From assembly GCF_900109285.1 (NCBI RefSeq), contig NZ_FNZQ01000002.1, positions 248,001-312,000 on the forward strand: a stretch of DNA of 64,000 bases. The letters run 5' to 3'. Positions within the stretch are counted from its first letter, which is position 1. Each line of letters starts with the position of its first letter. The translations under genes were made by a program, and so were the position numbers. This stretch comes from Jannaschia helgolandensis (lineage in GTDB: Bacteria > Pseudomonadota > Alphaproteobacteria > Rhodobacterales > Rhodobacteraceae). This document shows positions 10,026 to 34,746 of the stretch, piece by piece. Below the pieces are notes generated by a model, which had not been told where the DNA came from, ran no database searches, and worked only from the letters and a program-made list of their open reading frames with translations.

Positions 10026-10099
10026 TGGAGGCGAGTACCGGAATCGAACCGGTGTACACGGATTTGCAATCCGCTGCGTAACCACTCCGCCAACTCGCC
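10026..10099 (-). tRNA. tRNA-Cys (anticodon GCA)
   Basis: 74-nt cloverleaf on the minus strand with encoded CCA. The anticodon loop reads TTGCAAA, giving GCA. The acceptor stem pairs GGCGAGT with the 3' ACTCGCC, and the T arm has GGTTCGATTCC. The 5' half (10057-10099) is part of a 47-bp repeat found again at 17723-17769, so the mature gene is a hybrid of host 3' half and island-supplied 5' half. Confidence 0.97.
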
Positions 10100-10103
10100 G
10101 CAG
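10057..10103. repeat. Island attachment repeat, left copy
   Basis: 47 bp identical to 17723-17769. It covers the acceptor 5' strand, D arm and anticodon arm of tRNA-Cys plus 4 bases upstream. Identity stops abruptly on both sides (a versus c on the left, t versus g on the right), as expected for an att core duplicated by site-specific integration. Confidence 0.93.
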
Positions 10104-10509: not shown

Positions 10510-10541
10510 GCGAAAGAGAAAGGGCAGCCAAAAGCCGCCCT
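10510..10541 (-). terminator. Rho-independent terminator after the DUF397 genes
   Basis: On the minus strand the stem GGGCGGC/GCTGCCC (one G-U pair, closed by an A-T pair) has a TTTTG loop, followed by TTTCTCTTTCG. The G-U pair would be an A-C mismatch on the other strand, so it works for minus-strand transcripts, downstream of the DUF397 genes. Confidence 0.75.
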
Positions 10542-10573: not shown

Positions 10574-10780
10574 TCAGGTGAGGTCGAACTCACCGTCTTT
10601 AGCGCCAATCAGAAAGGCACCCCATTCGCTGTGCGTGAAGCTCAGCGTGGGGCCGCCCTTGTCTTTGGAATCGCGAACAAGGATGCCGTTAGGGGCCCGC
10701 TTGATCTCGACGCAGGCGGTGGTGTTCAAGAGGCTGGATGCCGAGGACTTCAAGAAGTCCTGGTCAGTCTTTGTCTTCAT
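10574..10780 (-). CDS. DUF397 domain protein, copy 1
   Basis: Small cytoplasmic protein of 68 aa. Most of it is a DUF397 domain: a cysteine-containing strand (ACVEIKRAPNGILVRD), then the diagnostic RDSKDKGGPTLSF and HSEWGAFL, ending in DGEFD. In actinobacteria such proteins are very common beside XRE-type regulators (WhiJ/BldB-related loci), where the pairs have been viewed as regulatory or toxin-antitoxin-like; they are unexpected in Rhodobacterales. The ATG at 10780 has an AAAGGA ribosome-binding site 6-8 bases upstream; a longer frame to 10807 is not needed. It is about 72% identical by eye to copy 2, just upstream, and probably shares its transcript. Confidence 0.85.
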   Translation of the reverse strand: MKTKTDQDFLKSSASSLLNTTACVEIKRAPNGILVRDSKDKGGPTLSFTHSEWGAFLIGAKDGEFDLT

Positions 10781-10834
10781 ATTTTTAGTCCTTTCGGGAT
10801 TTGCCACAGACAGCTTGGCATTGAGCCATACGGA

Positions 10835-11038
10835 TCAGGTGAGGTCGAACTCACCGCCCTTGGCGGCAGCTAGGAAGGCACCCCATTCGCTGTGCGTGAA
10901 GCTCAGCGTCGGGCCGCCCTTATCTTTGGAATCGCGAACAAAGATGCCTTCAGGGCCTCGCTTGATCTCAACGCACCAAGGTGAGTCAGCCGGGGACAGC
11001 GACGACTTGAAGAAGTCTTGATCGATCTTTAAACTCAT
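10835..11038 (-). CDS. DUF397 domain protein, copy 2
   Basis: Tandem paralogue of the downstream gene, 67 aa. The DUF397 core RDSKDKGGPTLSFTHSEWGAF is essentially unchanged; the N-terminal segment (SPADSPWCVEIKRGPEGIFV) varies. The ATG at 11038 follows an AAAGGA site by about 7 bases; an in-frame ATG at 11101 would add an unrelated leader. The two copies are separated by 54 bases, which are also partly similar, so the duplication looks recent. Function unknown; a partner role with the divergent XRE-GNAT-like protein is inferred from the actinobacterial pairing. Confidence 0.85.
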   Translation of the reverse strand: MSLKIDQDFFKSSLSPADSPWCVEIKRGPEGIFVRDSKDKGGPTLSFTHSEWGAFLAAAKGGEFDLT

Positions 11039-11221
11039 GTTTTCATTCCTTTTTCCATCGTTTTCAAGTAGGGGCAGATTTTGACGAGCGGGACATCTCA
11101 TGACACCCCGATCCAGAATGTTTGAACCGTTCTTACTTGCTACGCTCGGTACGCGTGATCTGGCTGTGTGGCGCAGACTGACGTAGCCTGCACCACACGA
11201 TTGCTTACTTAGGATTGTTAC

Positions 11222-11395
11222 TTACTTCTGGCTGTTCGCGTGATCGCGCCCAAACTGATAGTCACTGAGCTTTTCATTGACCTCTTTGAGGCCGTCTGAG
11301 GTCCACGTGAAAGCTTCTTCAGTGTGGCTGACAGGTCGATTGTGCTCGCCATTCGACGCATCCGTCTGGCCGTTGTTATGGTCTTTCTGGCTCAT
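11222..11395 (-). CDS. Unrecognised 57-aa hydrophilic protein
   Basis: Short frame upstream of and in line with the DUF397 genes. It encodes 57 residues rich in N, Q, H, D and E, with no hydrophobic segment and one tryptophan (HTEEAFTWTSDGLKEVNEKL). The ATG at 11395 has an AAGGGAGAG ribosome-binding site about 5-10 bases upstream, and the frame ends in TAA. No family is recognised. The third member of a minus-strand group facing the XRE-GNAT-like gene, it could be an antitoxin, a partner or an unrelated cargo gene. Confidence 0.6.
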   Translation of the reverse strand: MSQKDHNNGQTDASNGEHNRPVSHTEEAFTWTSDGLKEVNEKLSDYQFGRDHANSQK

Positions 11396-11471
11396 CGTAC
11401 TCTCCCTTTGTGCATATGAGCTACACTGACCTGATTTATTTCAAGTCTTCGAATAGCTCCTGTTTAAGTTC

Positions 11472-11495
11472 ATCACCACAAGCGGTGACATCACC
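11472..11495. promoter_or_regulatory. Candidate operator between the 57-aa gene and the XRE-GNAT-like gene
   Basis: TCACC and GGTGA form an inverted repeat with a 6-base spacer, and a second ATCACC half-site follows directly, in the 229-bp divergent intergenic region. It would suit binding by the XRE domain of the adjacent regulator; this is an inference. Confidence 0.35.
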
Positions 11496-11624
11496 TTTAT
11501 ACACGGCACATTTCCACAAAGCATCGAAGCCGGATCGAGACGTTCATTCATACAAGCGATTTACAAGTTGATTTTACGGCAACACCTGCGATGCTGAAAG
11601 CCAACAGTACATCGAGAGGGCGCC

Positions 11625-12503
11625 ATGAATTCAAGGTTTTCTGCAGCAATAAGGGGAGGGCTTTCTTTCCGGAGTGTCTCTCAGGCTACTTTCGCTGAAG
11701 ATATTGACGTCTCAAATAATACAGTAACATCTTGGGTTACGGACAAGACACTTCCCAATAAAAGATCTATGCCCTTGGTCCAAACATACTTTGAGTGGTC
11801 AGATGCAAAACTTCTCATGTTGTTAGAAGACTGGCATCTTAACGTCCGCAGTGAGAAGGCCTGCCACATTGCTGGAACAGATTTCGTTACGTGGAAATAT
11901 GGGGGGGATTATGTCCGCTTCTTAGAAGAACTGATTGCTCTTGATCAAGAGACTATCGATGGTGCCGTTGGAGAGCATGAAGGAACGCCTGATCAATGGG
12001 CACCTATATTCAAAAACAACCCTGACACTTGGAAATTACTTGTAAAAGGGGATAAGGTTGTCGGTTACTGGCAGTTCCATTGTCTCAAAAGAGAAGCTTA
12101 TGACTTAGTTGTCAATGGTGATATTACCGATGCCGATATCACTTTAGACATGGTAACTTACCCAGAAATAGCGGGGAACTATTTTGCACATTTGCCAGTT
12201 ATTACCACCCGCAAAGAAATACGAGGTATCAGAACAATCAAACTTATTATAGATTCACTCTGCGCAAGCATAAGGCAGTTCGCATCGGATGATGTCTATT
12301 TTGAGTCGTTTGCAGCAGTTGCATTCACAGACCAAGGCAAGCAATTATGTGAGCGACTTGGCTTAAGGTATAAAATTGACCACCCGAGAACGAACATAAG
12401 CGGGATTTCAAAGATCTACGAAATAAACGGTATTGATGTGCCTGCATCATATTTTGGTAGAGACCCACTAATCAGGGAAAAGTATATCAAAGCCTTCCAA
12501 TGA
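11625..12503 (+). CDS. XRE-type HTH protein with GNAT-like C-terminal domain
   Basis: Protein of 292 aa. Residues ~18-50 resemble an XRE helix-turn-helix (QATFAEDIDVSNNTVTSWVT). Residues ~135-255 look like a GNAT acyltransferase fold: a strand pair with DKVVGYWQF, a central strand YFAHLPVITT, a long helix at ~200-220, then VAFTDQGKQLCERLGLRY, which resembles the last strand-helix of GNAT enzymes. The acetyl-CoA loop is not a clear Q/RxxGxG/A, so activity is uncertain. The gene is much richer in A and T than its neighbours, a sign of transfer. The ATG at 11625 follows GAGAGGG. It is divergent from the DUF397 group. Confidence 0.65.
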   Translation: MNSRFSAAIRGGLSFRSVSQATFAEDIDVSNNTVTSWVTDKTLPNKRSMPLVQTYFEWSDAKLLMLLEDWHLNVRSEKACHIAGTDFVTWKYGGDYVRFLEELIALDQETIDGAVGEHEGTPDQWAPIFKNNPDTWKLLVKGDKVVGYWQFHCLKREAYDLVVNGDITDADITLDMVTYPEIAGNYFAHLPVITTRKEIRGIRTIKLIIDSLCASIRQFASDDVYFESFAAVAFTDQGKQLCERLGLRYKIDHPRTNISGISKIYEINGIDVPASYFGRDPLIREKYIKAFQ

Positions 12504-12667
12504 CATGGAATGAATTACAGTTCATATATACTGACCTAAAAGTTGATCAGATCTTCTCTGCATTTCCTTGCCAGTGTTAGGTTCTGCCCAGGGTTTGTGG
12601 CCAAGACACAAGCGGCCGTTATCGCCGTCCCGCCCTGCCCCACACCAGATCAATCGCTTAGGTTGGA

Positions 12668-12710
12668 CAAAAACCTACGGCAAAACCTTTGCGGTTTTGG
12701 CAGGTTTTTG
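12668..12710. repeat. 43-bp imperfect palindrome upstream of the resolvase gene
   Basis: Outer arms AAAAACCT (12669-12676) and AGGTTTTT (12702-12709) are perfect, and the inner arms GCAAAACC and GGTTTTGG are nearly so. It lies 13 bases before the resolvase ATG. It could be part of a res-type recombination site or a terminator for the gene before it. Confidence 0.5.
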
Positions 12711-12722
12711 GCACAGTGAGGC

Positions 12723-13262
12723 ATGATCATTGGATATGCTCGCGTCAGCACTGACGACCAGAACCTTGACGCACAGACTGACGCGCTGACAGCGGCTGGA
12801 GCTGGCAGACTCTTTGCCGACAAGATCAGTGGGTCGAAGCGCGAGCGGCCCGAGCTGGACAGGATGCTGGACCAGCTCCGCGACGGCGACGTTGTAATCG
12901 TCACCAAGTACGACCGCCTCGCCCGATCACTGAAAGACCTCCTAGAAATCGTGGAGGCGATCCGTGAGCGCGGTGCCGGGTTCCGGTCCCTGGCCGAGGA
13001 CATCGACACAACCACGCCAGCTGGCCGGCTTGTGTTTCACGTCTTTGCATCCATCGCACAGTTCGAGCGGGAGCGGATTTCCGAGCGGACAAAAGAAGGG
13101 CTCGCATCAGCGCGCAAACGCGGGCGCATCGGAGGCAGGCCCCCTGCCCTGTCAACCGCCCAGAAGGACGAAGTGCGGCGTATGAGGGACCAGGAACTTC
13201 GCGCGATCCCAGAGATCGCGCGCCTGTTTAAAGTCAGTGAGCGGACGGTTCGCAGAGCGTAA
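12723..13262 (+). CDS. Serine recombinase, resolvase/invertase family
   Basis: Small serine recombinase of 179 aa. The catalytic serine is residue 9 in YARVSTDDQNLDAQ. The resolvase core includes TKYDRLARSLKDLLEIVEAI, GAGFRSLAEDIDTTTPAGRL and the helix-E region FERERISERTKEGL; a C-terminal helix-turn-helix follows (RAIPEIARLFKVSERTVRR). It is full length for Tn3-type resolvases and Hin/Gin-type invertases. No transposase accompanies it, so it is either a transposon relic or the only recombinase left in the island. Enzymes of this size are not known to integrate into tRNA genes. Confidence 0.92.
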   Translation: MIIGYARVSTDDQNLDAQTDALTAAGAGRLFADKISGSKRERPELDRMLDQLRDGDVVIVTKYDRLARSLKDLLEIVEAIRERGAGFRSLAEDIDTTTPAGRLVFHVFASIAQFERERISERTKEGLASARKRGRIGGRPPALSTAQKDEVRRMRDQELRAIPEIARLFKVSERTVRRA

Positions 13263-13329: not shown

Positions 13330-13551
13330 ATGCGGGACAAACATGCGAAATTCAAGAAGCTGGCGGAATCGCGTGTAAATCGCGCGATCAAGGACCTGCG
13401 TCTGATCGGCAATCTCTCCAACAAGAGTGCCTATGCCTTTGAGGATGACGACATCCGAAAGATTTTCAGAGTGCTTCACAAAGAGCTTGAAGACGCCAAA
13501 GGCCGTTTCGGTGGTGCCCGTAACGCCAAAGAAGAGGATTTTCGTCTGTGA
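13330..13551 (+). CDS. Small basic helical protein of unknown function
   Basis: 73 aa from the ATG at 13330 (GGCGGA about 7 bases upstream; another ATG at 13306). Mostly charged helix: KFKKLAESRVNRAIKDLRLI, GNLSNKSAYAFEDDDIRKIF, then LHKELEDAKGRF. I do not recognise a named family. It overlaps the start of the truncated GHKL gene (TGATG), so the two were probably an operon whose second gene is now broken. Confidence 0.6.
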   Translation: MRDKHAKFKKLAESRVNRAIKDLRLIGNLSNKSAYAFEDDDIRKIFRVLHKELEDAKGRFGGARNAKEEDFRL

Positions 13552-13991
13552 TGAATATTGCAAGCGCTCAAACCTGGAACTGGATTTGGCCACACGTTGG
13601 GGCCACGCCGATCAATCAGGGGCTGGATTCGGAGATGTTCGACCGAACAGACTATCCGTATTCCGAGACCTTTGTCCGGGAAGCCATACAAAATAGTCTT
13701 GATGCACGGCTGGACCCTACAAAGCCGGTGGTAATGAACTTTACCTTTCATTCTACGGGGATAGGGCCGAGACGAGCTTTTCTTGAACCGGTCATGACCC
13801 ATCGTAAGAAGGCAGAGCTGGAGGTTCCCGAAGAATGGGCAAATGGCCATGTCAGGTGGCTTGTTGTGGAGGACTTCAACACTAAAGGCCTCAGTGGAAG
13901 CCTTACCAGCCGCACGAGTGATTTCTGGAACTATTGGCTCAGCCTGACCGTCAGATTGGCTTTGACAATTCCTTCGTCGTCGTCTCGCTGA
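13551..13991 (+). pseudogene. Truncated GHKL (HSP90/histidine-kinase-like) ATPase gene
   Basis: Remnant of a larger ATP-binding protein. Residues ~37-52 contain the N-box-like YSETFVREAIQNSLDAR, and RWLVVEDFNTKGLSG matches the following Bergerat-fold DxGxG-type region. After FWNYW (about 13937) the frame loses family character and ends in a low-complexity SSSSR stop. Relatives continue with a glycine-rich ATP lid and several hundred more residues, so only the N-terminal ~130 residues survive. The break lies between a resolvase and an R-M operon, typical of reshuffled defence islands. Confidence 0.6.
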
Positions 13992-14215: not shown

Positions 14216-15481
14216 ATGAACGCGCATCCACGGACGGAATTTGCGGAACTGATGGAGCGTGCCGGTCTCGACATCGACACCGCAGCCGAGCTTCTGGGGG
14301 TCAGTGACCGCACGGTCCGACGCAACATGAAGGGCGAGGGCAAGCGGATCGACCGGCTGCGGCTGGAGAAGCTGCGCCATACAGCGGATGCGCGCTGCAC
14401 GGGCGAGCGACCCGAGGGCTTCCGGTTCATTGACCTCTTCGCGGGGATCGGCGGATTGCGCCTGCCCTTCGAGGCCATCGGCGGACGTTGCGTTTTCACT
14501 GCGGAGTGGGACCGGTTCAGCCGGGAGACCTACAGTGCCAATTTCCCCGAGCCTGCCGACAGCGAACATATCTTTGCCGAGGACGTGCGCCCCTATGCGA
14601 ACGCACCGGAGACAATCCCGGCCCATGACGTGCTTCTGGCCGGGTTTCCCTGTCAGCCGTTCTCGATCGCGGGTGTGAGCAAGAAGAACGCCCTTGGCCG
14701 TCCGCATGGTTTCCTCTGCGACACGCAGGGAACGCTTTTCTACGATCTGGCCAAAATCATCGACCATCACAAACCGCCCGCGTTCCTTCTGGAGAACGTG
14801 AAAAACCTTGAGCGCCATGACGGTGGCAAGACCTTCGCCACGATCATCCACGTGCTGGAGAAGGAGCTTGGCTATCGCGTCTTTCACAGGGTCATCAGCT
14901 CGACTCCGTGGGTGCCGCAGAAGCGCGAGCGTATCTTCATCGTCGGTTTCAAGGATCACAGCGTGGAGTTCGACTTCGACCGGCTCGCCGTGCCGGAAGG
15001 CGACGGGCCAAAGCTGGGCTCGATCCTCGATAAGGACGTCGATTCGAAATACACGCTTACGGAACACATGTGGAATTACCTTCAGGGCTACAAGGAGAAG
15101 CACCGCAGCGCCGGTAACGGGTTCGGGTTTTCCCTTTTCGGCCCGAAGGACGTGGCCCGCACCCTGTCCGCCCGCTACTACAAGGACGGCTCCGAAATCC
15201 TGATCGAGCAGAAAGGCGACCGCCCGCGCCGCCTGACACCGCGTGAGTGCGCGCGCCTGATGGGGTTCGAGAAGCCCGGAAGGACGGACTGGAAGATCCC
15301 CGTGTCCGACACGCAGGGCTATCGCCAGTTCGGCAACGCGGTTGTCGTGCCGGTTGTGAACGCGGTCGCGCAGCTCATGCAGCCGCGCATCATCGAGGCG
15401 ATGGAGCTGGACGGGCGGCAGGTGCCTGCCACTGTGCAGGTCCAGCTTCCCCTGCCCGAGCCCGGTATCGCAGCGGAGTAA
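14216..15481 (+). CDS. DNA (cytosine-5) methyltransferase of an EcoRII/Dcm-type system
   Basis: C5-cytosine methyltransferase of 421 aa. Motif I FIDLFAGIGGLRLPF (residues 71-85), motif IV GFPCQPFS with catalytic Cys146, motif VI LLENVKNL, motif VIII PQKRERIFIVGF and motif X QFGNAVVVPV are all present. The ~60 N-terminal residues contain a helix-turn-helix-like segment (DTAAELLGVSDRTVRRNMKG), as in M.EcoRII, which represses its own gene. The linked EcoRII-like endonuclease and Vsr imply CCWGG as target, with the inner C methylated. The ATG at 14216 has an upstream GCAGGGGCAGG. It overlaps vsr by one base (TAATG). Confidence 0.95.
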   Translation: MNAHPRTEFAELMERAGLDIDTAAELLGVSDRTVRRNMKGEGKRIDRLRLEKLRHTADARCTGERPEGFRFIDLFAGIGGLRLPFEAIGGRCVFTAEWDRFSRETYSANFPEPADSEHIFAEDVRPYANAPETIPAHDVLLAGFPCQPFSIAGVSKKNALGRPHGFLCDTQGTLFYDLAKIIDHHKPPAFLLENVKNLERHDGGKTFATIIHVLEKELGYRVFHRVISSTPWVPQKRERIFIVGFKDHSVEFDFDRLAVPEGDGPKLGSILDKDVDSKYTLTEHMWNYLQGYKEKHRSAGNGFGFSLFGPKDVARTLSARYYKDGSEILIEQKGDRPRRLTPRECARLMGFEKPGRTDWKIPVSDTQGYRQFGNAVVVPVVNAVAQLMQPRIIEAMELDGRQVPATVQVQLPLPEPGIAAE

Positions 15482-15954
15482 TGCCTGCGGATACCGTCAC
15501 GCCCGCAACCCGAAGCCGGATGATGGCAGGCATCAAGGGCAAGAACACCAGACCGGAGCTGATAATCAGGTCAGCGCTGCACAGGCGCGGTTTCCGGTTT
15601 CGACTGCACCGCAAGGACCTGCCCGGCAAACCCGACCTTGTGTTCGCGGGACGGGGCGCGGTGATCTTCGTTCATGGCTGTTTCTGGCACGGGCACGACT
15701 GCCATCTATTTCGCTGGCCGAAGAGCCGCGAGGAGTTCTGGCGCGACAAGATCGGCAGGAACATCGAGCGCGACCGGCAGCAGTATCAGGCCCTGACCGA
15801 GGCGGGCTGGCGCATCGGAACGGTCCGGGAGTGCGCCCTGAAGGGCAAGACCCGCCTGCCCTTCGACAGCGTTGTCGATCAATGCGCCATATGGTTGAAA
15901 TCCGATACAAAAACGCTGGAGGTGAGCGGTGATACAACGCGGGCAACTGTCTGA
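15481..15954 (+). CDS. vsr: Very short patch repair endonuclease (Vsr)
   Basis: T:G mismatch nicking endonuclease, 157 aa. It repairs deamination of 5-methylcytosine at Dcm-type sites. Family markers: RSRMMAGIKGKNTRPEL near the N-terminus, the catalytic aspartate in GKPDLVF, and the zinc-site and catalytic histidines in VHGCFWHGHDCH. The ATG at 15481 shares one base with the methyltransferase stop. A longer in-frame reading from 15247 merely runs through the methyltransferase gene. Its presence protects the host from mutation at methylated CCWGG, matching the specificity inferred for the operon. Confidence 0.95.
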   Translation: MPADTVTPATRSRMMAGIKGKNTRPELIIRSALHRRGFRFRLHRKDLPGKPDLVFAGRGAVIFVHGCFWHGHDCHLFRWPKSREEFWRDKIGRNIERDRQQYQALTEAGWRIGTVRECALKGKTRLPFDSVVDQCAIWLKSDTKTLEVSGDTTRATV

Positions 15955-17152
15955 CTATTTCGAGGGTGTCGGGGTCAAGCGCCTGTCCGCCGTCGATGCC
16001 GAGCCTAAACGGTCCAACCAGCACGAAGTGAATACGACGCCCCAAATGCGGGACGAATTTCTGGGGGACACACAGCACCAGAAGTTTCCCGCAATCTACA
16101 TCTGGCTTGGCGGCGATCAGGAGGGTTTCACCGAGGAGAGCTGGGCCACGCACTACGACACCCGCCTCAATAATCCGGATCGCTCGCCTGAATGGCGGCT
16201 CTACTACCCCTCCAACCCCGTCACGGAGGCCATGAAGGCCGGGGACACCCTGTTCCTCGCCAAGGACCAGGGCGGCGTCCTGTGGTTTATCGTTGCCCCC
16301 GAGGGGTCCACCAGTGAGCAGCAGCTCTTCTGGCTGTTCGGTCTGCGCCCCGAAGGCAAATCCTTCGTGTCGCGCGAGTTCTCCGACGAGGAACCGGAGC
16401 TGGACTTCGCCGCGCGCTTCATCCTGGACGAGATCGGCGTTGAGTTCGAGGAACCCGAAGCCGACAAGCTGGACAGCATCATCGAGAGGTTCGGCACCAC
16501 GTTCCCGAAGACGGCCGAGTTCTCCCATCTGGCCCGTCTCACGCTGCCCGAGGTCCGCGCCGAGGACGACCCGGACGCGGCGCTCATTGCTTGGCTGGAT
16601 CACGAAGAGGCCCTGTTCCGGCGGCTGGAGCGCAAGGTCGTATCGTCGCGGATCGAGGCCGGGTTCGTGGACGACAGCGGCACGGACGTTGACGGCTTCA
16701 TCAGCTTTTCGCTGAGCGTCCAGAACCGGCGCAAGTCCCGCATGGGGCATTCGCTGGAAAACCACCTTGCCGCCGTTCTCGGGGCGCATGACATCCGGCA
16801 TGTCCGGGGCGCGGTTACGGAACACAACCACAAGCCCGACTTCCTCTTTCCCGATCTGGAGACCTACCAGGCTGCCCCGGCCGGGGGAGACCCCCGCCTG
16901 ACAATGCTGGGGGCCAAGTCCACCTGCAAGGATCGCTGGCGACAGGTTCTGGCCGAGGCCGAGAAGATCAGCCGCAAGCACCTGCTGACGCTGGAGCCGG
17001 GGATTTCCGAGCCGCAGACCAACCAGATGGAGGCGTCCAGTCTTCAGCTCGTCGTCCCTGCCCCGGTTCACGGCAGCTACACCGATGCGCAGCGCGGCTG
17101 GCTCTGGTCGGTCGGTGATTTTATTAAGAAAGTTCGTGCGCGCCAAGCCTGA
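15929..17152 (+). CDS. EcoRII-type restriction endonuclease
   Basis: Type IIE endonuclease of 407 aa, essentially the length of EcoRII (~404). Residues ~15-175 correspond to the EcoRII N-terminal effector-DNA domain. The catalytic domain shows MGHSLENHL, the PD motif KPDFLFPD (Asp304) and GAKSTCKDRWRQV (Lys330, Lys334), spaced as in the EcoRII active site, then KHLLTLEPGIS. A GTG at 15929 follows a strong GGAGGTG ribosome-binding site, and the gene overlaps vsr by 26 bases. With methyltransferase and Vsr it forms one operon; cleavage at CCWGG is predicted. Confidence 0.93.
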   Translation: MIQRGQLSDYFEGVGVKRLSAVDAEPKRSNQHEVNTTPQMRDEFLGDTQHQKFPAIYIWLGGDQEGFTEESWATHYDTRLNNPDRSPEWRLYYPSNPVTEAMKAGDTLFLAKDQGGVLWFIVAPEGSTSEQQLFWLFGLRPEGKSFVSREFSDEEPELDFAARFILDEIGVEFEEPEADKLDSIIERFGTTFPKTAEFSHLARLTLPEVRAEDDPDAALIAWLDHEEALFRRLERKVVSSRIEAGFVDDSGTDVDGFISFSLSVQNRRKSRMGHSLENHLAAVLGAHDIRHVRGAVTEHNHKPDFLFPDLETYQAAPAGGDPRLTMLGAKSTCKDRWRQVLAEAEKISRKHLLTLEPGISEPQTNQMEASSLQLVVPAPVHGSYTDAQRGWLWSVGDFIKKVRARQA

Positions 17153-17722: not shown

Positions 17723-17769
17723 CACGGATTTGCAATCCGCTGCGTAACCACTCCGCCAACTCGCCGCAG
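17723..17769. repeat. Island attachment repeat, right copy (orphan tRNA-Cys 5' half)
   Basis: 47 bp identical to 10057-10103. It holds tRNA-Cys from its first base (17765, minus strand) through the anticodon arm. It then stops, so no functional tRNA can be made here. It marks the right boundary of the island. Confidence 0.93.
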
Positions 17770-26571: not shown

Positions 26572-28332
26572 GTGGGCTGGCTTGGCGTCACCTCCTCGGC
26601 CACAGGCCGTCGCTGGGTCGGCCTGACGCCCGAACAGGAGCGTTTTGCCGAAGCCATAGCCCAGACCGGCCAGCCCCTTGCCCTGTCGCGCCATCTTGCG
26701 CGGCGCGGTGTGCCGCCCGATGAGGTCGCCAGCTTTCTTGAACCACGGCTGCGCGACCTGCTGCCCGACCCGCTGACATTGCGCGATATGGGAACCGCTG
26801 CCGACCGCATACTGGTTGCCGTTGAAAATCGTCAGCGGATTGCGATTTTCGCCGACTACGATGTAGACGGTGGGACATCTGCGGCCCTTCTGGTCTGGTG
26901 GTTGCGCGGCCTGGGGCGGGTGGCCACAACCTATGTCCCTGACCGCATCGACGAAGGATATGGCCCCAACGCACCCGCCATCGCCGCCTTGGCCCGTGAC
27001 CACGATCTGATCATATGCGTCGATTGCGGCACCCTGTCCCACGAGGCGCTGGCCGCCGCCGACGGCCTGGCCGACGTTATCGTCCTGGACCACCATCTGG
27101 GCGGCGAGACCCTGCCCCCCGCAGTGGCCGTTGTGAACCCGAACCGGCAGGACGAGGATGGCACGCTTGCCCATCTCTGTGCTGCCGCCGTCGTTTTTCT
27201 GTGCCTGGTCGAGGCGAACCGACGCCTGAAAGCCGACGGCACAACCGGGCCGGACCTGATGGCTATGCTCGATCTCGTAGGCCTTGCCACCGTGGCCGAT
27301 GTCGCGCCGCTGGTCGGGGTGAATCGCGCCTTGGTGCAGCAGGGGCTGAAGGTGCTGCGCGACCGCCGTCGACCCGGCCTGCGTGCCTTGGCCGACGTCG
27401 CCCGCATGGACGGCCCGCCGACGCCCTACCACCTTGGCTATCTGCTGGGGCCGCGTATCAACGCGGGCGGGCGTGTCGGCGCGTCGGATCTGGGCGCGCG
27501 CCTTCTGTCGACCGACGACGATGCCGAGGCGGCAGCTCTGGCCGAACGGCTGGACGCTTTGAATGGCGAACGCCGCGCGATCGAGGCGCGGGTGACCGAG
27601 ACCGCGCTGGAACAGGCGCTGGACCGACTGGCCGATGGCGGCGCGCTGGCCTGGGCCTCGGGCGACGGCTGGCATCCCGGCGTTGTGGGCATTGTGGCGT
27701 CTCGTCTGAAGGAGGCGAGCAACCGCCCCTCTGTCGTGATCGGCATCCGCGAGGACGGCTTCGGTCAAGGTTCGGCCCGGTCCATCGCGGGCGTCGACAT
27801 CGGTGCAGCCGTGCAGCGACTGGCCGCCGAGGGCCTGTTGGTGAAAGGCGGGGGCCACCGCATGGCGGCCGGGTTGACGGTGGCTGGCGACAAGATCGAC
27901 GCAGCGATGGCCCGCCTGTCGGACCTGCTGGCGCGTCAGGGGGCCGACCGCACCGGCCCCCGTGACCTGATCATCGACGCGACCCTGATGCCCGGAGCCG
28001 CGACCCGCGATCTGATCGCGAAGCTGGAACAGGCCGGGCCATTCGGCCAGGGCGCATCGGCACCACGTTTCGCCTTCCCGGACCTGCGCGTGGCCCACGC
28101 CCGACCTGTGGGTGACGGGCATCTAAAGATTACCTTCACCGGTGGCGGACCGGGCCGTCTGGACGCCATCGCCTTCCGTGCCAGTGCCAGTGGAATCGCC
28201 GCCGCAATCGACCGCGCCGCCGGTGCGCCGCTTCATGTCGCCGGTCGATTGGAAGTGAACCGTTGGCAGGGCCGCGAGGACGTGCAGCTGAAGCTGGAGG
28301 ATGTGGCTTTGGTCGCGGAAACAGACCGTTGA
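26572..28332 (+). CDS. recJ: Single-stranded-DNA-specific exonuclease RecJ
   Basis: 5'-3' ssDNA exonuclease for recombination and repair, 586 aa. DHH phosphoesterase motifs: FADYDVDGGTSAALL (motif I), CVDCGTLSHEA, VLDHHLGGE (DHH), and VDLVGLATVADVAPL-type motif IV. The DHHA1 domain carries HPGVVGIVASRLKEASNRP and KGGGHRMAAGLTV. The C-terminal OB fold ends in WQGREDVQLKLEDV. Start GTG at 26572, with the first conserved residues soon after; no better ATG exists. It ends 99 bases before tRNA-Glu. Confidence 0.95.
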   Translation: MGWLGVTSSATGRRWVGLTPEQERFAEAIAQTGQPLALSRHLARRGVPPDEVASFLEPRLRDLLPDPLTLRDMGTAADRILVAVENRQRIAIFADYDVDGGTSAALLVWWLRGLGRVATTYVPDRIDEGYGPNAPAIAALARDHDLIICVDCGTLSHEALAAADGLADVIVLDHHLGGETLPPAVAVVNPNRQDEDGTLAHLCAAAVVFLCLVEANRRLKADGTTGPDLMAMLDLVGLATVADVAPLVGVNRALVQQGLKVLRDRRRPGLRALADVARMDGPPTPYHLGYLLGPRINAGGRVGASDLGARLLSTDDDAEAAALAERLDALNGERRAIEARVTETALEQALDRLADGGALAWASGDGWHPGVVGIVASRLKEASNRPSVVIGIREDGFGQGSARSIAGVDIGAAVQRLAAEGLLVKGGGHRMAAGLTVAGDKIDAAMARLSDLLARQGADRTGPRDLIIDATLMPGAATRDLIAKLEQAGPFGQGASAPRFAFPDLRVAHARPVGDGHLKITFTGGGPGRLDAIAFRASASGIAAAIDRAAGAPLHVAGRLEVNRWQGREDVQLKLEDVALVAETDR

Positions 28333-28431
28333 AGACACCCGTACCTCGGACGCAAATTCCGTCGACCAGACTGCCAAAAACCGCTTGCAGGCTCAGGACC
28401 CCTCGCCTAAGAACCCCTCACGCCAGAGAAT

Positions 28432-28506
28432 GGCCCGTTCGTCTATCGGTTAGGACGCCAGGTTTTCAACCTGGAAAGAGGGGTTCGATTCCCCTACGGG
28501 CTGCCA
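28432..28506 (+). tRNA. tRNA-Glu (anticodon TTC)
   Basis: 75-nt cloverleaf with encoded CCA. Anticodon stem CCAGG/CCTGG with loop TTTTCAA gives TTC. The acceptor stem GGCCCGT pairs with ACGGGCT (first pair G-U), and the T arm is GGGGTTCGATTCCCC. No flanking repeat was seen, so this tRNA does not appear to be an occupied integration site. Confidence 0.96.
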
Positions 28507-29028
28507 CTTATTCTTACAGGTAATTGATTTTACTTCGGACCGGCGTTTTTTCACAACTTTGACTTTGGACGCTTCATGTCGTGAATTCATGCGGGTGCAT
28601 GAACAATTATGACCAGAGCCTCGTCCGCAGAAAGCGCGGACCGACCCGGCCCAGCCATAGCGCAGCGTTGCGTTAACGCGGCGTACGGCTGAACTGGGTG
28701 GACAATGGAAGGACATGGCACGCACCGCATCAAGGTCGTCCCGACCTCCGCCGGTCCTCTCGGATGCTGCCCCTTCAGGTCCGCCTATCGCTCAAAGTGC
28801 TATCCTGAGCTTTCTTGTGGCAGATTGCTTCGACTGGAAGGCTGCACCACAGAACAGGTTGGCGTGATGATGTCTCCTTGCCGAGCCCGCCTCATACAAA
28901 CAATTGAAATAAAGTAATTATTTCAAAATCTCTTTGATATCAGGTCGTGACTGCGGTGGCTTGTTGTTGTCAGGTCGCACGACACCTGTTTAAGTCGATG
29001 CAGTCACTGGGGGGGTGCTCGCAAAGAT
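28507..29028. other. Intergenic region before the Pot-type operon
   Basis: 522 bp. A 70-codon frame at 28705-28917 has no domain, is cysteine-rich in an unpatterned way and lacks a good ribosome-binding site. Near 28951-28993, CAGGTCG occurs twice and CAGGT/ACCTG can pair, but the pattern is too weak to call an operator. The promoter of the ABC operon should lie here. Confidence 0.4.
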
Positions 29029-30123
29029 ATGAAAGACACTGGACCGGAAACCTTCCTGCGTTTCGACAACGTCAAGAAAAGCTATGACCAGAAAAACCTC
29101 GTGGTTAAGGGCTTTGACATGGACGTACGAGATGGTGAGTTTATCACGCTTCTCGGGCCGTCGGGGTCAGGCAAAACCACCGTATTGATGATGCTTGCCG
29201 GGTTCGAAAGCGTCACTTCGGGCGATATCGCCATTGCCGGCAAGTCGATCAACAAGACAGCGCCGAACAAGCGCAACATCGGCATGGTCTTTCAGAACTA
29301 TGCCTTGTTTCCACATATGACAGTGGCCGAAAACCTGGCCTATCCGCTGAAGGTGCGCAAATTGCCCAAGGCCCAGGTTAGGGACAGGGTGGCGGAATAC
29401 CTCGATCTGGTTGAGTTATCGGAGTTTGGAGACCGGCGTCCGGGGCAACTGTCGGGGGGGCAACGGCAGCGCGTGGCCCTGGCGCGGGCGATGATATTCG
29501 AGCCGACGTTGATCCTGATGGACGAACCGCTTGGCGCGCTGGACAAGAACCTGCGTGAACAGATGCAGTTCGAGATTACCCGTCTGCACAAACAAATGGG
29601 ATTCACTGTAATCTACGTGACCCACGATCAGACCGAGGCTCTGTCGATGTCCAGTCGGATCGCTGTCTTCAACGATGGGATTGTACAACAATGCGCCCCA
29701 CCGGCCGAGCTTTACGAGCATCCGGCGAACGCTTTTGTTGCGGAATTTATCGGTGAGAACAATTTTATCCCCGGCACGGTCATTACGCGCGATGCAACGA
29801 GCGCGAAGGTCCAGACTGACGGCGGCACGATTGTCGCGCAGGCAGCGGAAGGCTTGACCGAGGGCAGCGCATGCCGGGTGTCGATCCGGCCTGAAAAGCT
29901 GTTCATCCCGCCCACAAACCACGACTATGACAACGCCCTGACTGTACGGTTCAATACCCGAATCTACGTCGGCGATTTCATACGTTATTACTTCAAGCTG
30001 ACTGACGGCACAGATATTATCGTCAAGGTTTTGAATGACTTATCCGCGCCAGATTTCGACAATGGCGCAGAGGCCCAGCTGCTTTGGCTGGCATCCGATT
30101 GCATCGCCTTCCCTGCCGGGTAG
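29029..30123 (+). CDS. ABC transporter ATP-binding protein, PotA-type
   Basis: Nucleotide-binding subunit of a Pot-type importer, 364 aa. Walker A GPSGSGKTTVLMM, Q-loop VFQNYALFPHMTV, signature LSGGQRQRVALARAM, Walker B LILMDEPLGALD and H-loop YVTHDQTEAL are all intact. The C-terminal ~120 residues form a TOBE domain (ENNFIPGTVITRDAT, then VSIRPEKLFI). First gene of an operon with binding protein and two permeases. The substrate class (polyamine or similar cation) is inferred from family only. Confidence 0.94.
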   Translation: MKDTGPETFLRFDNVKKSYDQKNLVVKGFDMDVRDGEFITLLGPSGSGKTTVLMMLAGFESVTSGDIAIAGKSINKTAPNKRNIGMVFQNYALFPHMTVAENLAYPLKVRKLPKAQVRDRVAEYLDLVELSEFGDRRPGQLSGGQRQRVALARAMIFEPTLILMDEPLGALDKNLREQMQFEITRLHKQMGFTVIYVTHDQTEALSMSSRIAVFNDGIVQQCAPPAELYEHPANAFVAEFIGENNFIPGTVITRDATSAKVQTDGGTIVAQAAEGLTEGSACRVSIRPEKLFIPPTNHDYDNALTVRFNTRIYVGDFIRYYFKLTDGTDIIVKVLNDLSAPDFDNGAEAQLLWLASDCIAFPAG

Positions 30124-30179
30124 GTGACACAGGACAAACCGGGGTCCTGCAAAACGCCCGGACTGACAAGGAGAAACCG

Positions 30180-31223
30180 ATGAAAAAACATCTAACGTTA
30201 CTTGCCACCTTGGCGCTGACTGCCAGCCCCGTCGTGGCACAGGATCTGACAGTGACCTCCTTCGGCGGGGCCTATGGCGCCGCACAGAAGGAGCATATGA
30301 TCGATCCTTTCGTGGCCGAGACCGGCACGAATATCCTGTTTGAAGATTATGGCGGCGGCATCGCCGAGATGAAGGCGCAGGTCGAAGCCGGCAATATCCA
30401 ATGGGACGTCGTTGATATCGAGGTGATCGACCTCGAACGTGCGTGCGCCGAGGGATATCTCGAGGTCATCGATCAAAGCACCCTGCCCGACGGTGACGAC
30501 GGCACCCCTGCGGCGGACGATTTCATTGAAGACGCTTTGGCCAATGAATGCGGCGTCGGTAATATCGTCTGGTCGGTCGTCTTTGCGGTGAACACCGAAA
30601 ACGGTCCCGGTCCGCAAACCATTGCAGAGTTCTTTGACACCGAAGCCTTCCCCGGCAAGCGAGGCCTGCGCAAGCGTCCGCAGGTCAACATGGAATGGGC
30701 CCTGATCGCCGATGGCGTCGCTCGCGAAGATGTCTATGATCTGCTGTCGACCGAAGAAGGGCAGGCTCGGGCCTTCGAAAAGCTGGATACGATCAAGGAA
30801 GACATCGTCTGGTACGATAGCTGGTCGCAGGCTCCCGTTCTGCTGAACGATGGCGGTGCGCAGATGGTGCAATCCGCCAACGGTCGCATCTTCGCGGCCA
30901 TTCAGGACGACGGCGCGCCGTTCAGCATCGTCTGGGACAGCCACGTCTACGACCTTGACGTCTGGGCGATCATGAAGGGCACACCCAACAAGGACAAGGC
31001 GATGGAGTTCATCCAGTTCGCCACCCGGACTGTGCCGCTGTCGGGGATGCAGGATGTTGCCTATGGCCCCACACGTCGCTCGGCCCAGGCGCTCCTGCCC
31101 GAAAGCGTAAAGCAGGATTTGCCGACGGCCCACCTTGAGGAAGGTCTGAAAGCCGACGGTATCTTCTGGGCCGACTTCGGCGAAAGCCTTGGCGAGAAGT
31201 TCAACGAATGGCTGCTGCAATGA
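30180..31223 (+). CDS. ABC transporter substrate-binding protein, PotD/PotF-type
   Basis: Periplasmic binding protein of 347 aa. Signal peptide MKKHLTLLATLALTASPVVAQ (cleavage after AQ), then DLTVTSFGGAYGAAQKEHM, the usual start of this family. Other landmarks: GGIAEMKAQVEAGNIQWDVV, FPGKRGLRKRP and MEFIQFATRTVPLSGMQDVAYGPTRRSA. ATG at 30180, with AAGGAG 8 bases upstream. It lies between the ATPase and permease genes and is followed by a hairpin. Acidic pocket residues suggest a cationic ligand, but polyamine binding is not proven. Confidence 0.92.
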   Translation: MKKHLTLLATLALTASPVVAQDLTVTSFGGAYGAAQKEHMIDPFVAETGTNILFEDYGGGIAEMKAQVEAGNIQWDVVDIEVIDLERACAEGYLEVIDQSTLPDGDDGTPAADDFIEDALANECGVGNIVWSVVFAVNTENGPGPQTIAEFFDTEAFPGKRGLRKRPQVNMEWALIADGVAREDVYDLLSTEEGQARAFEKLDTIKEDIVWYDSWSQAPVLLNDGGAQMVQSANGRIFAAIQDDGAPFSIVWDSHVYDLDVWAIMKGTPNKDKAMEFIQFATRTVPLSGMQDVAYGPTRRSAQALLPESVKQDLPTAHLEEGLKADGIFWADFGESLGEKFNEWLLQ

Positions 31224-31229
31224 GCCGCT

Positions 31230-31260
31230 GCCCCCTGCGCCGTCCTGAGGTGCGGGGGGC
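31230..31260 (+). other. Intercistronic hairpin after the Pot-type binding-protein gene
   Basis: 12-bp stem (GCCCCCTGCGCC with GGTGCGGGGGGC, two G-U pairs) with a 7-base loop, starting 7 bases after the stop codon. No T-run follows, and the first permease gene starts 15 bases later. Probably protects or attenuates the mRNA rather than ending it. Confidence 0.7.
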
Positions 31261-31275
31261 GTCAGAAATTATATC

Positions 31276-32517
31276 ATGACCACAGCACCACACCGATTGG
31301 ATCCCGCCGACGCCCGCAATGCGGCGCGCGAAGTGCGCAAGCGCAGGCTACAGGCGTTCCTGTTCGTGGTGCCTTTGCTGATTTTTATCGTCTTTGCCTT
31401 TGTGGCCCCGATCACGACGATGCTGTTCCGCAGTGTGCACAATCCGACCGTCGCAAATCTCGTGCCCGACACATTGGCCGCACTTGACGACTGGTCTGGC
31501 GAAACCACACCGGACGAGACTGTTCTGATCCAGTTCGCGTCAGACATGAAACGGATGGCGAACGATCGCACGTCCGGTCAGCTTGCAGATGAAATCAACC
31601 GGGCGCTGCCTGGTATGTCGAGCGTCGTCAAATCCACAGCGCGAAGTCTGCGCCGGGTGGAGGATACCGAGATCGCCGCAAACGGTGCATCCCTTCTGCT
31701 GGAGGCCAACGACCGCTGGGCAGATCCGGCCACATGGCATGCCTTGAGATCCGCAGGGCAGGTCTATTCCTCAAGCTATTACCTGACATCTGTCGACCTT
31801 GAACGAAAGGCTGACGGCAGCATCGCCCAACGCGATACGCAGATTTACGTGAAACTCTATATCAAGACTTTGCGTATGGCCCTCATCATCACGGTCCTGA
31901 CAATTGTGCTGGGCTATCCGCTTGCCTTCTTCATGGCGCAGGCGTCGGACGGGCTGGCTAATTTCCTGATGGTCTTTGTACTTCTTCCATTCTGGACCTC
32001 GCTATTGGTACGGACCACGGCATGGATCGCACTGCTGCAAACAAACGGCGTCGTGAACTCCACATTGATGGCTATAGGGGTCATCGATCAACCGCTCGAA
32101 TTACTTTACACCGAATTTTCGACCATCATTGCAATGACGCATATCCTTCTGCCGTTCATGGTCCTCCCGCTTTATGCGGTCATGCGCGGGATTGATCAGA
32201 GTTTCATGCGGGCTGCCATTTCGATGGGAAGCCGACCGCTTGGAGCCTGGTATCGGATCTTTCTGCCCATGAGCCTGCCAGGCTTATCGGCAGGGGCGCT
32301 TTTGGTGTTCATCATATCGGTGGGCTACTACATCACGCCTGCTTTGGTTGGCGGGACCGACGGGCAGATGATTTCCAACATTATTGCATTCCATATGCAG
32401 CAATCCAACAATTGGGAGCTGGCCGCCGCACTGGGGTCGCTCCTGCTGGTGCTCATCTTGTTGCTCTACTGGTTGTTTGATCGCCTTGTCGGTGCCGATA
32501 ACATCAAACTGGGATAG
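31276..32517 (+). CDS. ABC transporter permease, PotB-type with long periplasmic insertion
   Basis: Integral membrane subunit of 413 aa; PotB-type permeases usually have about 290-310. The first membrane segment is at residues ~23-45. It is followed by ~140 mostly hydrophilic residues (about 50-190) before the transport core, which begins YIKTLRMALIITVLTIVLGYPLAFFMA. The EAA-type loop is in AAISMGSRPLGAWYRIFLPMSLPGL. The insertion is presumably periplasmic and may contact the binding protein. The next permease starts 3 bases after its stop. Confidence 0.93.
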   Translation: MTTAPHRLDPADARNAAREVRKRRLQAFLFVVPLLIFIVFAFVAPITTMLFRSVHNPTVANLVPDTLAALDDWSGETTPDETVLIQFASDMKRMANDRTSGQLADEINRALPGMSSVVKSTARSLRRVEDTEIAANGASLLLEANDRWADPATWHALRSAGQVYSSSYYLTSVDLERKADGSIAQRDTQIYVKLYIKTLRMALIITVLTIVLGYPLAFFMAQASDGLANFLMVFVLLPFWTSLLVRTTAWIALLQTNGVVNSTLMAIGVIDQPLELLYTEFSTIIAMTHILLPFMVLPLYAVMRGIDQSFMRAAISMGSRPLGAWYRIFLPMSLPGLSAGALLVFIISVGYYITPALVGGTDGQMISNIIAFHMQQSNNWELAAALGSLLLVLILLLYWLFDRLVGADNIKLG

Positions 32518-32520
32518 ATA

Positions 32521-33369
32521 ATGAAACGGTTTCCCGAATATTACTCTTTCTGGCATTATTCAGGCCACTACGCGTTGCGGGTGGTCGCGTTTCTGGTGCT
32601 GGTCTTCCTGATGCTGCCGATCCTCGTGATCATGCCACTGTCTTTCAACTCCGAGCCATTCTTCACCTTCACCGAAGGCATGTTGTCGCTGGACCCCGAT
32701 GCCTATTCGCTGCGCTGGTATCAGGAGATCCTGGACGATCAGAAATGGCAGTTGGCGATCCGGAACAGCTTTGCGGTCGGGATCGCGGCGGCGTTGATCG
32801 CCACGACCCTTGGAACACTGGCCGCAGTCGGCTTGTCCTCGCCCTGGATGCCATACAAGCGCTTGATCACAGCGCTTTTGCTGTCCCCTATGATCGTGCC
32901 TCTGATCATCATCGCAGCGGGCATGTTCTTTTTCTATACCAGGTTCAATCTGGTCGGCACCTTTACGGGCTTGATCATCGCCCATGCCGCCCTGGGGGTC
33001 CCTTTTGTCATCATCACTGTCACGGCCACGCTGAGCGGGTTTGACAGGTCCCTGTTCAGTGCGGGCCTGAGCCTTGGTGCACAACCGGTCAAGGTATTCT
33101 GGGACATCGTCATCCCGTTGATCCGGCCCGGCGTCATCGCGGGCGGACTGTTTGCCTTTGTGACGTCATTCGATGAGGTCGTACTGGTGCTGTTTCTGGC
33201 AGGACCAGAACAGCGCACAATTCCAAGGCAGATGTTTTCGGGTCTGCGAGAACAGATCAATCCGACAATTCTTGCCGTGGCGACCCTGCTTGTCGTCCTG
33301 TCCGCTACATTGCTTTTCACGCTTGAAGCCCTGCGCAGGCGATCGGCGCGTCTGAGCGGGTCAGCCTGA
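32521..33369 (+). CDS. ABC transporter permease, PotC-type
   Basis: Second membrane subunit, 282 aa, six predicted helices. Landmarks: LPILVIMPLSFNSEPFFTF, LLSPMIVPLIIIAAGMFFFY and the EAA loop FSAGLSLGAQPVKVFWDIVIPLIRPGV. Normal length for PotC. It ends the operon; the region after it contains the IS-type remnant, so the transposon footprint lies immediately downstream. Confidence 0.94.
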   Translation: MKRFPEYYSFWHYSGHYALRVVAFLVLVFLMLPILVIMPLSFNSEPFFTFTEGMLSLDPDAYSLRWYQEILDDQKWQLAIRNSFAVGIAAALIATTLGTLAAVGLSSPWMPYKRLITALLLSPMIVPLIIIAAGMFFFYTRFNLVGTFTGLIIAHAALGVPFVIITVTATLSGFDRSLFSAGLSLGAQPVKVFWDIVIPLIRPGVIAGGLFAFVTSFDEVVLVLFLAGPEQRTIPRQMFSGLREQINPTILAVATLLVVLSATLLFTLEALRRRSARLSGSA

Positions 33370-33400
33370 CCTTCAGGCCCATCCATTTCGGATTTTGCAG

Positions 33401-33545
33401 TCTAGGGTCAGGACCCATTGATACTGGCTCGAACTTCTGACTCACTGCTCCGAAAAAGGAGTGGTGACATGAGTGATCTCTATTGGCTTACCAACGCGCA
33501 GATGGCGCGGCTTGAGACCTTCTTTCCGAAGTCACACGGCAAGGA
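33401..33545 (+). pseudogene. IS5-type insertion sequence remnant (left end and transposase N-terminus)
   Basis: The ATG at 33469 begins 26 residues (SDLYWLTNAQMARLETFFPK) that match the conserved start of IS5-group transposases; the similarity then stops abruptly after SHGK. The leader contains GGGTCAGGACCC near 33406, which looks like the outer end of such an element. No second half or right end is visible, so this is a decayed fragment between the ABC operon and the LysR gene. Confidence 0.7.
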
Positions 33546-33738
33546 GCGGCATCAAATCGCGACAGTTCCAGATCCCCTTCTTGCGAGATGCGACGATCTT
33601 GTCGTGGATGCGCCCGCCGATGCCCGAGATTCGAACCGGCCTCTTCCACATGACGCGATCAGGTAGAGTGTGGCGGTTCGGGTTCGGGGTTTCCTCATTC
33701 GTCGGCGGCATCGATTGACAGCTCCCGCTTGCGCCGCG

Positions 33739-33763
33739 ATGGTTCCGATATTGATGGAACCAT
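33739..33763. promoter_or_regulatory. Candidate LysR operator
   Basis: Inverted repeat ATGGTTCC, 9 bases, GGAACCAT, just upstream of the LysR start at 33775. The arm and spacer lengths suit a LysR-type (T-N11-A-like) site for self-regulation. An alternative LysR start at 33754 would lie inside it. Confidence 0.45.
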
Positions 33764-33774
33764 GGATCGTCGCC

Positions 33775-34746
33775 ATGCCGCTCCCCCGAACTCCCCTGCA
33801 AGCGCTGGAGGCCTTCGAGAAGGTCGCCCTGTCAGGGTCGATGCGACAGGCGGCGCTCGAAATGAAGCTGTCGATATCCTCGGTATCGCATCACGTCGCG
33901 CGGCTGGAGGAGCAGCTCGGCACGGCTCTGCTCGATCGCTCGTCACGGCCGCTCGTCCTCACCCGCGAGGGCCGGGAAGTCCTCCACCACCTGTCCCAGG
34001 GCTTGGGCCATCTCCGACGGGCGACGAGCGCCACGGCCATCGGCGGGTTGCTGGGCGCGCGCGCCCTTCGCATCGGCATCATCGAGGATTTCGAGGCCCG
34101 CGTGACCCCAGGACTGGCCACGGCGCTCGCGGGCCAAATGCCGAACGCGAAGCTCTCGATCCGGAGTATCCTGAGCCATGACGTGCCTGGCCTTCTGAAC
34201 CAAGACGAACTGGACGTCGCCATCGCATCCGAACCGGAGAGCCGGGCCGAGAGTCTTATCTGCGATCCGCTGCTGCGCGATCCGTTCGTTCTGGTTATGC
34301 AAAAGAACGCCGGTTTCGATCCGGTCGCCCTGCTCGATGGCAGCGATGCGCTACCGTTCCTGCGGTTCAATCGCGAACACCTGATCGGGATGCAGGTCGA
34401 GGCCCATCTCGCCCGCAACCGGATCACGTTGCCCGACCGCTATGCATTCGACAGCGTGCAGTCGATCCTGGCGATCGTCGCGGACGGGAACGGTTGGTCC
34501 ATCATCACACCCCTCGGATTCGCGCGCGCGCAGCGCTTCGCCGAGCGCGTTGCCCTGCATCCGCTTCCGCTCCCCGTCTTCGCGCGGCGGATCTCGCTGA
34601 TGTCGCGGAGCGATTCCGATCGGCCCGTCGCACATGCGATCGCCGCACTTCTACGCAGCATCGTCGCCCAGAGCGAGGTCGGCCCCATCATCGCCGCGTA
34701 TCCCTGGCTCGCTGGCGTGTTCGCAACACTCGACCCGTCGGACTGA
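33775..34746 (+). CDS. LysR family transcriptional regulator
   Basis: 323 aa. The N-terminal winged helix-turn-helix is PLQALEAFEKVALSGSMRQAALEMKLSISSVSHHVARLEEQLG, followed by LLDRSSRPLVLTREG. The LysR substrate-binding domain starts at about residue 90. The GcvA-like N-terminal spelling fits regulators of amino-acid or one-carbon genes. ATG at 33775 chosen because the HTH then begins in the usual place; 33754 is possible. It is followed, 142 bases on, by the flavoprotein gene on the same strand, the likely target. Confidence 0.9.
   Translation: MPLPRTPLQALEAFEKVALSGSMRQAALEMKLSISSVSHHVARLEEQLGTALLDRSSRPLVLTREGREVLHHLSQGLGHLRRATSATAIGGLLGARALRIGIIEDFEARVTPGLATALAGQMPNAKLSIRSILSHDVPGLLNQDELDVAIASEPESRAESLICDPLLRDPFVLVMQKNAGFDPVALLDGSDALPFLRFNREHLIGMQVEAHLARNRITLPDRYAFDSVQSILAIVADGNGWSIITPLGFARAQRFAERVALHPLPLPVFARRISLMSRSDSDRPVAHAIAALLRSIVAQSEVGPIIAAYPWLAGVFATLDPSD

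Follow-up and report, generated by a model that had tools for sequence, protein, structure and literature searches.

The 64,000-nucleotide stretch analysed here (positions 248,001 to 312,000 of contig NZ_FNZQ01000002.1, assembly GCF_900109285.1, of the alphaproteobacterium Jannaschia helgolandensis; hereafter the window) carries two adjacent genes of the DUF397 family (PF04149), a tandem duplicate located in an island of 7.67 kb at a tRNA-Cys gene. In our best explanation, to which we assign a probability of roughly 0.4, the genes are a horizontally acquired, BldB-type pair in the foreign left half of this composite island, with a regulatory role and with the XRE-like protein encoded beside them as their partner. 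A reading in which the pair is only a passenger is almost as likely. The novelty lies in the host and context of the DUF397 genes; the family itself is known. The coordinates of all features are collected in Table 1.

Both DUF397 products exceeded the Pfam gathering cut-off for PF04149 (24 bits), with 56.3 bits (E 3.7e-15) for copy 2 and 58.9 bits (E 5.5e-16) for copy 1, and the PHROG 10815 match of copy 2 had an E-value of 4e-15. The first possible start codons of the two open reading frames (ORFs) give products of 77 and 88 amino acids (aa); judging by the AAAGGA sites, translation more likely begins at 10780, giving 68 aa, and at 11038, giving 67 aa, and the start of copy 2 is supported by AAAGGACTAAAAATATG. 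Both products contain the CxE (as CVE) and RDS motifs, which characterise the DUF397 domain (PMC7159879). They resemble the described members BldB, Scr2 and SCO4542 in scoring above the cut-off, in these motifs, in a length of 67-68 aa and in tandem arrangement, which is common in the family (PMC7159879), and differ from them in a non-actinobacterial host, in the distance to plasmid-borne relatives and in a GC content near that of the host genes. The GC content of the two genes is 56-57%, and 68-77% at third codon positions (GC3), close to the measured host genes. The proteins are 74% identical, so that the near-identity ascribed to them in the preliminary description holds for the C-terminal two thirds but not overall. 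Nonsynonymous (dN) and synonymous (dS) divergence between the copies over 66 codons, a small sample, was 0.18 and 0.55; copy 2 was entered without its start codon in this comparison, which put the alignment out of register over its first few codons. From these values the reading frame looks constrained, and the dN/dS ratio of about 0.32 indicates that something has kept the copies. An AlphaFold2 (AF2) model built from the two window sequences alone showed a strand-strand-strand-helix order in residues 21-60, with a mean predicted local distance difference test score (pLDDT) of 75-80 there and below 50 at both ends; the DUF397 fold has four strands and a terminal helix, and the model displays three strands and a helix. 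In PDB, no sequence relative was found with the two-sequence profile, and no fold match to the AF2 model was found at E <= 0.001. The terminator-like hairpin past copy 2 is weakly supported, since chance alone would give 2.7 such sites in the region, where three occur.

The occurrence of this pair outside the Actinobacteria was upheld by the genomic surroundings. The plasmids most similar to the first 7.9 kb of the window belong to the Rhodobacterales genera Thalassococcus and Loktanella, and those most similar to its TolC-like protein to the Rhodobacterales genus Sulfitobacter; contamination is unlikely because the genes lie on a 396-kb contig beside a gene common to congeners. PF04149 was found only in the own genome among the sampled genomes of the genus (20), order (390), class (385) and phylum (398), sets that overlap and comprise an estimated 1,115 or so distinct genomes, with the two window genes as positive control. 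The own genome yielded these two copies and no others. The DUF397 domain (PMC7159879) and BldB (PMC10294661) have been described as restricted to Actinobacteria, while other reports speak against a strict limit by calling DUF397 merely most abundant there (PMC2701414, PMC6262351); a proteobacterial DUF397 was not found in the examined sections of the DUF397 literature. All DUF397-matching plasmid records (33, 56 and 59 of 72,556 in overlapping sets) carry names of actinobacterial genera, and all five matching phage records of 50,697 are by name phages of actinobacterial genera. The closest plasmid-borne relatives, from actinobacteria, reach at most 53% identity over 65% of the query, or 52% over 87%, and no recent donor is therefore visible. 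A scan of viral contigs found no DUF397. The scan of genome contigs used two narrow patterns, such that absence is not demonstrated by it; its sole match, in an Acidobacteria metagenome-assembled genome (L019), was rejected by eye as chance, as it covered 23 residues directly after a stop codon with no DUF397 sequence beyond.

The island named in the preliminary description was confirmed, and with it the case for horizontal transfer gained support. An exact 47-bp direct repeat, made up of the anticodon-to-5′ part of tRNA-Cys and adjoining bases, is present in two copies 7,666 bp apart, and the 7.67-kb insertion attaches to the 5′ part of the tRNA-Cys gene. The PCMT-family gene that follows the second repeat in the window has a whole tRNA-Cys gene next to it in 17 of 19 congeners. 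The other two (L027 and L033) had no tRNA-Cys in the examined stretch beside the PCMT-family gene, which may point to another insertion or a rearrangement at this place. The empty site is seen from one flank alone, since the LysE-like gene on the other flank was matched in only one of the 19 congeners. No integrase family was detected among 16 island ORFs scanned with Pfam, one of which straddles the island end, and a small serine recombinase is the sole recombinase among them. The segment 10104-12609, which holds the DUF397 pair and the XRE-like gene, has a GC content of 47.8% versus 60.6% for the window. As plasmid similarity to the island begins at 12610 or later among the 20 listed of 3,254 matching plasmid records, this segment looks like a separate module.

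The divergent neighbour of the preliminary description was confirmed as a 292-aa ORF on the strand opposite to the pair, at a distance of 586 bp and with another ORF between them. The XRE-like helix-turn-helix (HTH) domain assigned to this protein, located at the N-terminus, was confirmed in part: the HTH_3 match was below the Pfam cut-off (13.8 bits against 23, E 0.063), but a PHROG transcriptional repressor was matched at E 0.0022, a profile of 12 family members found the P22 c2 repressor in PDB at E 0.0021, and HTH_3 was matched at E <= 0.5 in 11 of the 12 members. With a GC content of 42% and a GC3 of 40%, the gene is clearly foreign by composition, and its 292-codon frame is intact; the earlier statement that composition points to transfer thus applies to this gene and not to the DUF397 genes.

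Matches to the XRE-like protein were found in 13 of the 390 order genomes, own included. Ten of the 12 other matches (L004-L012, L014) are orphan proteins of similar length with both an HTH and a homologous C-terminal domain; they differ from the window protein in sequence (17-23% identity over the alignment), in occurring in genomes without DUF397 and in their neighbours, and no close relative was found. Another match (L013), without an HTH match, was kept in the alignment of the window protein with 11 of the 12 other matches (A1), and suggests that the C-terminal domain occurs in other architectures as well; by eye, this relative (L013:1084-2040) has a hydrophobic N-terminus. The remaining match (L015 in genome G188) was doubtful, extending over 58 residues to an aminotransferase protein, and was dropped from the alignment. 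No relative was found in the scan of genome contigs, nor in plasmids and phages by tblastn, and the viral contig scans yielded a single locus (L040), whose match was confined to the HTH region. Profile searches matched 12 of 190 class genomes and 5 of 200 phylum genomes, counting the own genome; all matches but the own protein were weak, with E-values of 1e-3 to 2e-6, and lay mostly over the HTH region. The C-terminal profile had a single match in the own genome, the XRE-like protein itself.

The GNAT-like character proposed for the C-terminal domain was not borne out. No Pfam GNAT family was matched up to E 0.5 in the 12 family members, one of which hit PF19576 "Acyltransferase" below cut-off (E 0.12), and no GNAT chain was among the four PDB sequences found with the C-terminal profile up to E 10. 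The acetyl-CoA loop of GNAT proteins has the consensus Q/R-x-x-G-x-G/A. This motif is absent from the C-terminal domain in all 12 members: nine have no match anywhere, and three have a match at residue 81, ahead of the domain. A single-sequence AF2 model of the XRE-like protein had a pLDDT of 31 and was discarded. To the eye, the C-terminal domain runs through a hairpin, a strand, a long helix, a strand and a helix with a G-L/F ending; this succession gives an impression of GNAT proteins, and the domain may have a degenerate GNAT fold. Toxins of the GNAT type exist (TacT, AtaT), and the visual impression of strand-helix order is all that the domain has in common with them. Even with a GNAT fold, the protein would probably not be a standard acetyltransferase. 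A narrow literature search found no XRE-GNAT fusion.

In the preferred explanation, the DUF397 pair, perhaps together with the 57-aa ORF upstream, would form one transcription unit divergent from the gene of the XRE-like regulator. The DUF397 products would most likely be small accessory proteins that self-associate and modulate a DNA-binding regulator by binding to it, a role proposed for BldB-type proteins towards WhiJ-type regulators in Streptomyces. The product of 11625-12503 would be the best local candidate for this regulator, acting on the 229-bp divergent region. In S. venezuelae, no binding of BldB to DNA was seen, BldB interacts with its paralogues in a two-hybrid assay, and WhiJ9 is required for the strong activation of iosA upon BldB loss (PMC10294661). 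Adjacency, divergence across the 229 bp and location in one foreign segment argue for the partnership, and the XRE-like gene provides the sole HTH match in the left half of the island. As in the WhiJ-BldB and Scr1-Scr2 pairs, the gene beside the DUF397 genes encodes a protein of some 290 aa whose N-terminus is XRE-like and whose C-terminal domain measures about 180-200 aa.

Several observations weigh against this partnership. In all three fetched actinobacterial pairs (of 38 matching plasmid and phage records), the XRE and DUF397 genes lie on one strand and overlap by 4 bp, and the XRE protein carries DUF5753; the window genes are divergent with an ORF between them and a weak HTH score, and DUF5753 was not found in the XRE-like protein or elsewhere in the own genome with a model that detects it in the three control records. 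The window pair thus fails two tested features of WhiJ-BldB pairs, lacking DUF5753 and same-strand overlap, though it may nevertheless function in the manner of such a pair. When the two XRE families were compared by profile, only the HTH aligned, at 62.5% probability. In the 229-bp region, no sigma-70-like promoter was found (2.6 expected by chance), and repeats were weak. Direct contact between DUF397 and XRE proteins has not been demonstrated in the Streptomyces work consulted, in which Scr1 depends on Scr2 but contact between the two could not be demonstrated, Scr2 being insoluble (PMC6262351), and one paper cites earlier work that called BldB a DNA-binding repressor (PMC4239341). The combined module of DUF397 proteins with a DNA-binding acyltransferase-like protein, as first proposed, also found no backing in co-occurrence: of the 12 further genomes of the order sample that match the XRE-like protein, not one has DUF397, a weak test because the relatives are just 17-23% identical and none is close.

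The same absence of co-occurrence favours the passenger reading, in which the DUF397 pair is a lone passenger in an island with defence genes, unconnected with the XRE-like gene. Its partner would then be absent or a protein of the host, and the XRE-like protein would be an orphan regulator acting independently. This reading, nearly on a par with the preferred one, is also favoured by the strong difference in GC and GC3 between the genes; with a GC content of 42% for one and 56-57% for the others, they may have met by chance. For ten of the 12 relatives, wider flanks were fetched: by crude gene calling there is no small partner gene in common, and the neighbours mostly differ and by eye are often housekeeping genes. 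Shared neighbour families were confined to two relatives of the same genus (L044 and L046) and to two families common to L045 and L050. One of the L044/L046 families, a transporter, also has a relative in the window outside the island. DUF397 copies independent of an HTH gene are known from VMAP-ternary conflict systems (PMC7159879). Against the passenger reading are the adjacent, divergent arrangement within one foreign segment of 2.5 kb and the constraint on the DUF397 copies. That constraint, together with the intact frame of the XRE-like gene at its low GC, also argues against the left half being a decaying relic of a larger acquired region, whose genes, though intact, would have ceased to matter. 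We consider such decay quite unlikely, although no integrase family was found in the island ORFs scanned and the ORF 13548-13991 is a truncated gene that covers only positions 32-132 of the 627 of the defence candidate PDC-M33A (E 4.4e-9).

Given that GNAT toxins exist, a toxin-antitoxin (TA) system could be imagined in which a toxin of this type is joined to an XRE antitoxin or lies close to one, DUF397 being the toxin or a modulator. The absence of a GNAT match and of the acetyl-CoA motif speaks against it, and the genes here are not a same-strand overlapping pair. DUF397-XRE pairs have been predicted as TA systems from genomics (PMC2701414), and co-evolution of the pairs was taken as support (PMC4239341). 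However, none of 14 such pairs of S. coelicolor behaved as a type II TA system, overexpressed DUF397 being not clearly toxic in any of them (PMC10364602), and Scr1/Scr2 did not behave as one either, with Scr2 likewise not clearly toxic (PMC6262351). The TA-like role suggested earlier is accordingly very unlikely in the light of these reports, and the DUF397 pair is probably regulatory rather than toxic. A bolder form of the preferred explanation is that a BldB/WhiJ-like switch crossed to Alphaproteobacteria on an island of defence genes and was rewired, the duplicated DUF397 pair now controlling an XRE regulator with a degenerate, non-catalytic acyltransferase-like sensor in place of DUF5753; we hold this to be unlikely.

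Table 1. Features of the tRNA-Cys island, in window coordinates
Feature	Position	Strand	Remarks
Direct repeat, 47 bp, exact	10057..10103	.	island end inside complete tRNA-Cys gene (10026-10099, minus)
Terminator-like hairpin with T-rich tail	10521..10541	minus	32 bases past copy 2 stop; pattern scan
DUF397 copy 2	10574..10780	minus	68 aa, begins MKTKTDQDFLKSS; CVE and RDS motifs; PF04149, PHROG 10815
DUF397 copy 1	10835..11038	minus	67 aa, begins MSLKIDQDFFKSS; PF04149
Small ORF, 57 aa	11222..11395	minus	same strand as DUF397 pair; GGGAGAG before ATG; possible third gene of the unit
Divergent intergenic region, 229 bp	11396..11624	.	shared operator expected here
XRE-like protein, 292 aa	11625..12503	+	C-terminal domain without recognised fold (GNAT-like by eye only)
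Start of plasmid-like half	12610..13262	+	101-bp stretch (12610-12710), then small serine recombinase gene (12723-13262); Pfam Resolvase 6.6e-49
EcoRII-like set: cytosine methyltransferase, Vsr, EcoRII-C endonuclease	14216..17152	+	Pfam, NCBIfam, PADLOC
Direct repeat, 47 bp, exact	17723..17769	.	displaced part of original tRNA-Cys at other island end

The 57-aa ORF, which follows a good ribosome-binding-like site, had no Pfam or NCBIfam match and PHROG matches only at E 0.04 and 0.08, and nothing in plasmids matched it at E <= 1. At the start of the plasmid-like half, Paracoccus plasmid pBM153 showed DNA identity of 76% to the 101-bp stretch and 81% to the recombinase gene, in a match cut by the start of the circular record; on that plasmid two genes lie between the 101-bp-like stretch and the recombinase gene. 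The 101-bp stretch also matched a Roseinatronobacter plasmid over 65 bp, just upstream of the recombinase gene of that plasmid, and is possibly a res-like recombination site. The EcoRII-like set showed 85-88% DNA identity to three Rhodobacterales plasmids. Its cytosine methyltransferase (14216-15481) has an N-terminal Xre-like HTH domain (PF20432) that scored just above cut-off. Outside the island, a second stretch of lower GC (about 57-58%, 28000-34000) begins near a tRNA-Glu gene at 28432 and may be a further island.

The window thus holds an intact, constrained and duplicated DUF397 pair without the usual DUF5753 partner, in which the biochemistry of DUF397 would be testable away from the crowded paralogue networks of Streptomyces.

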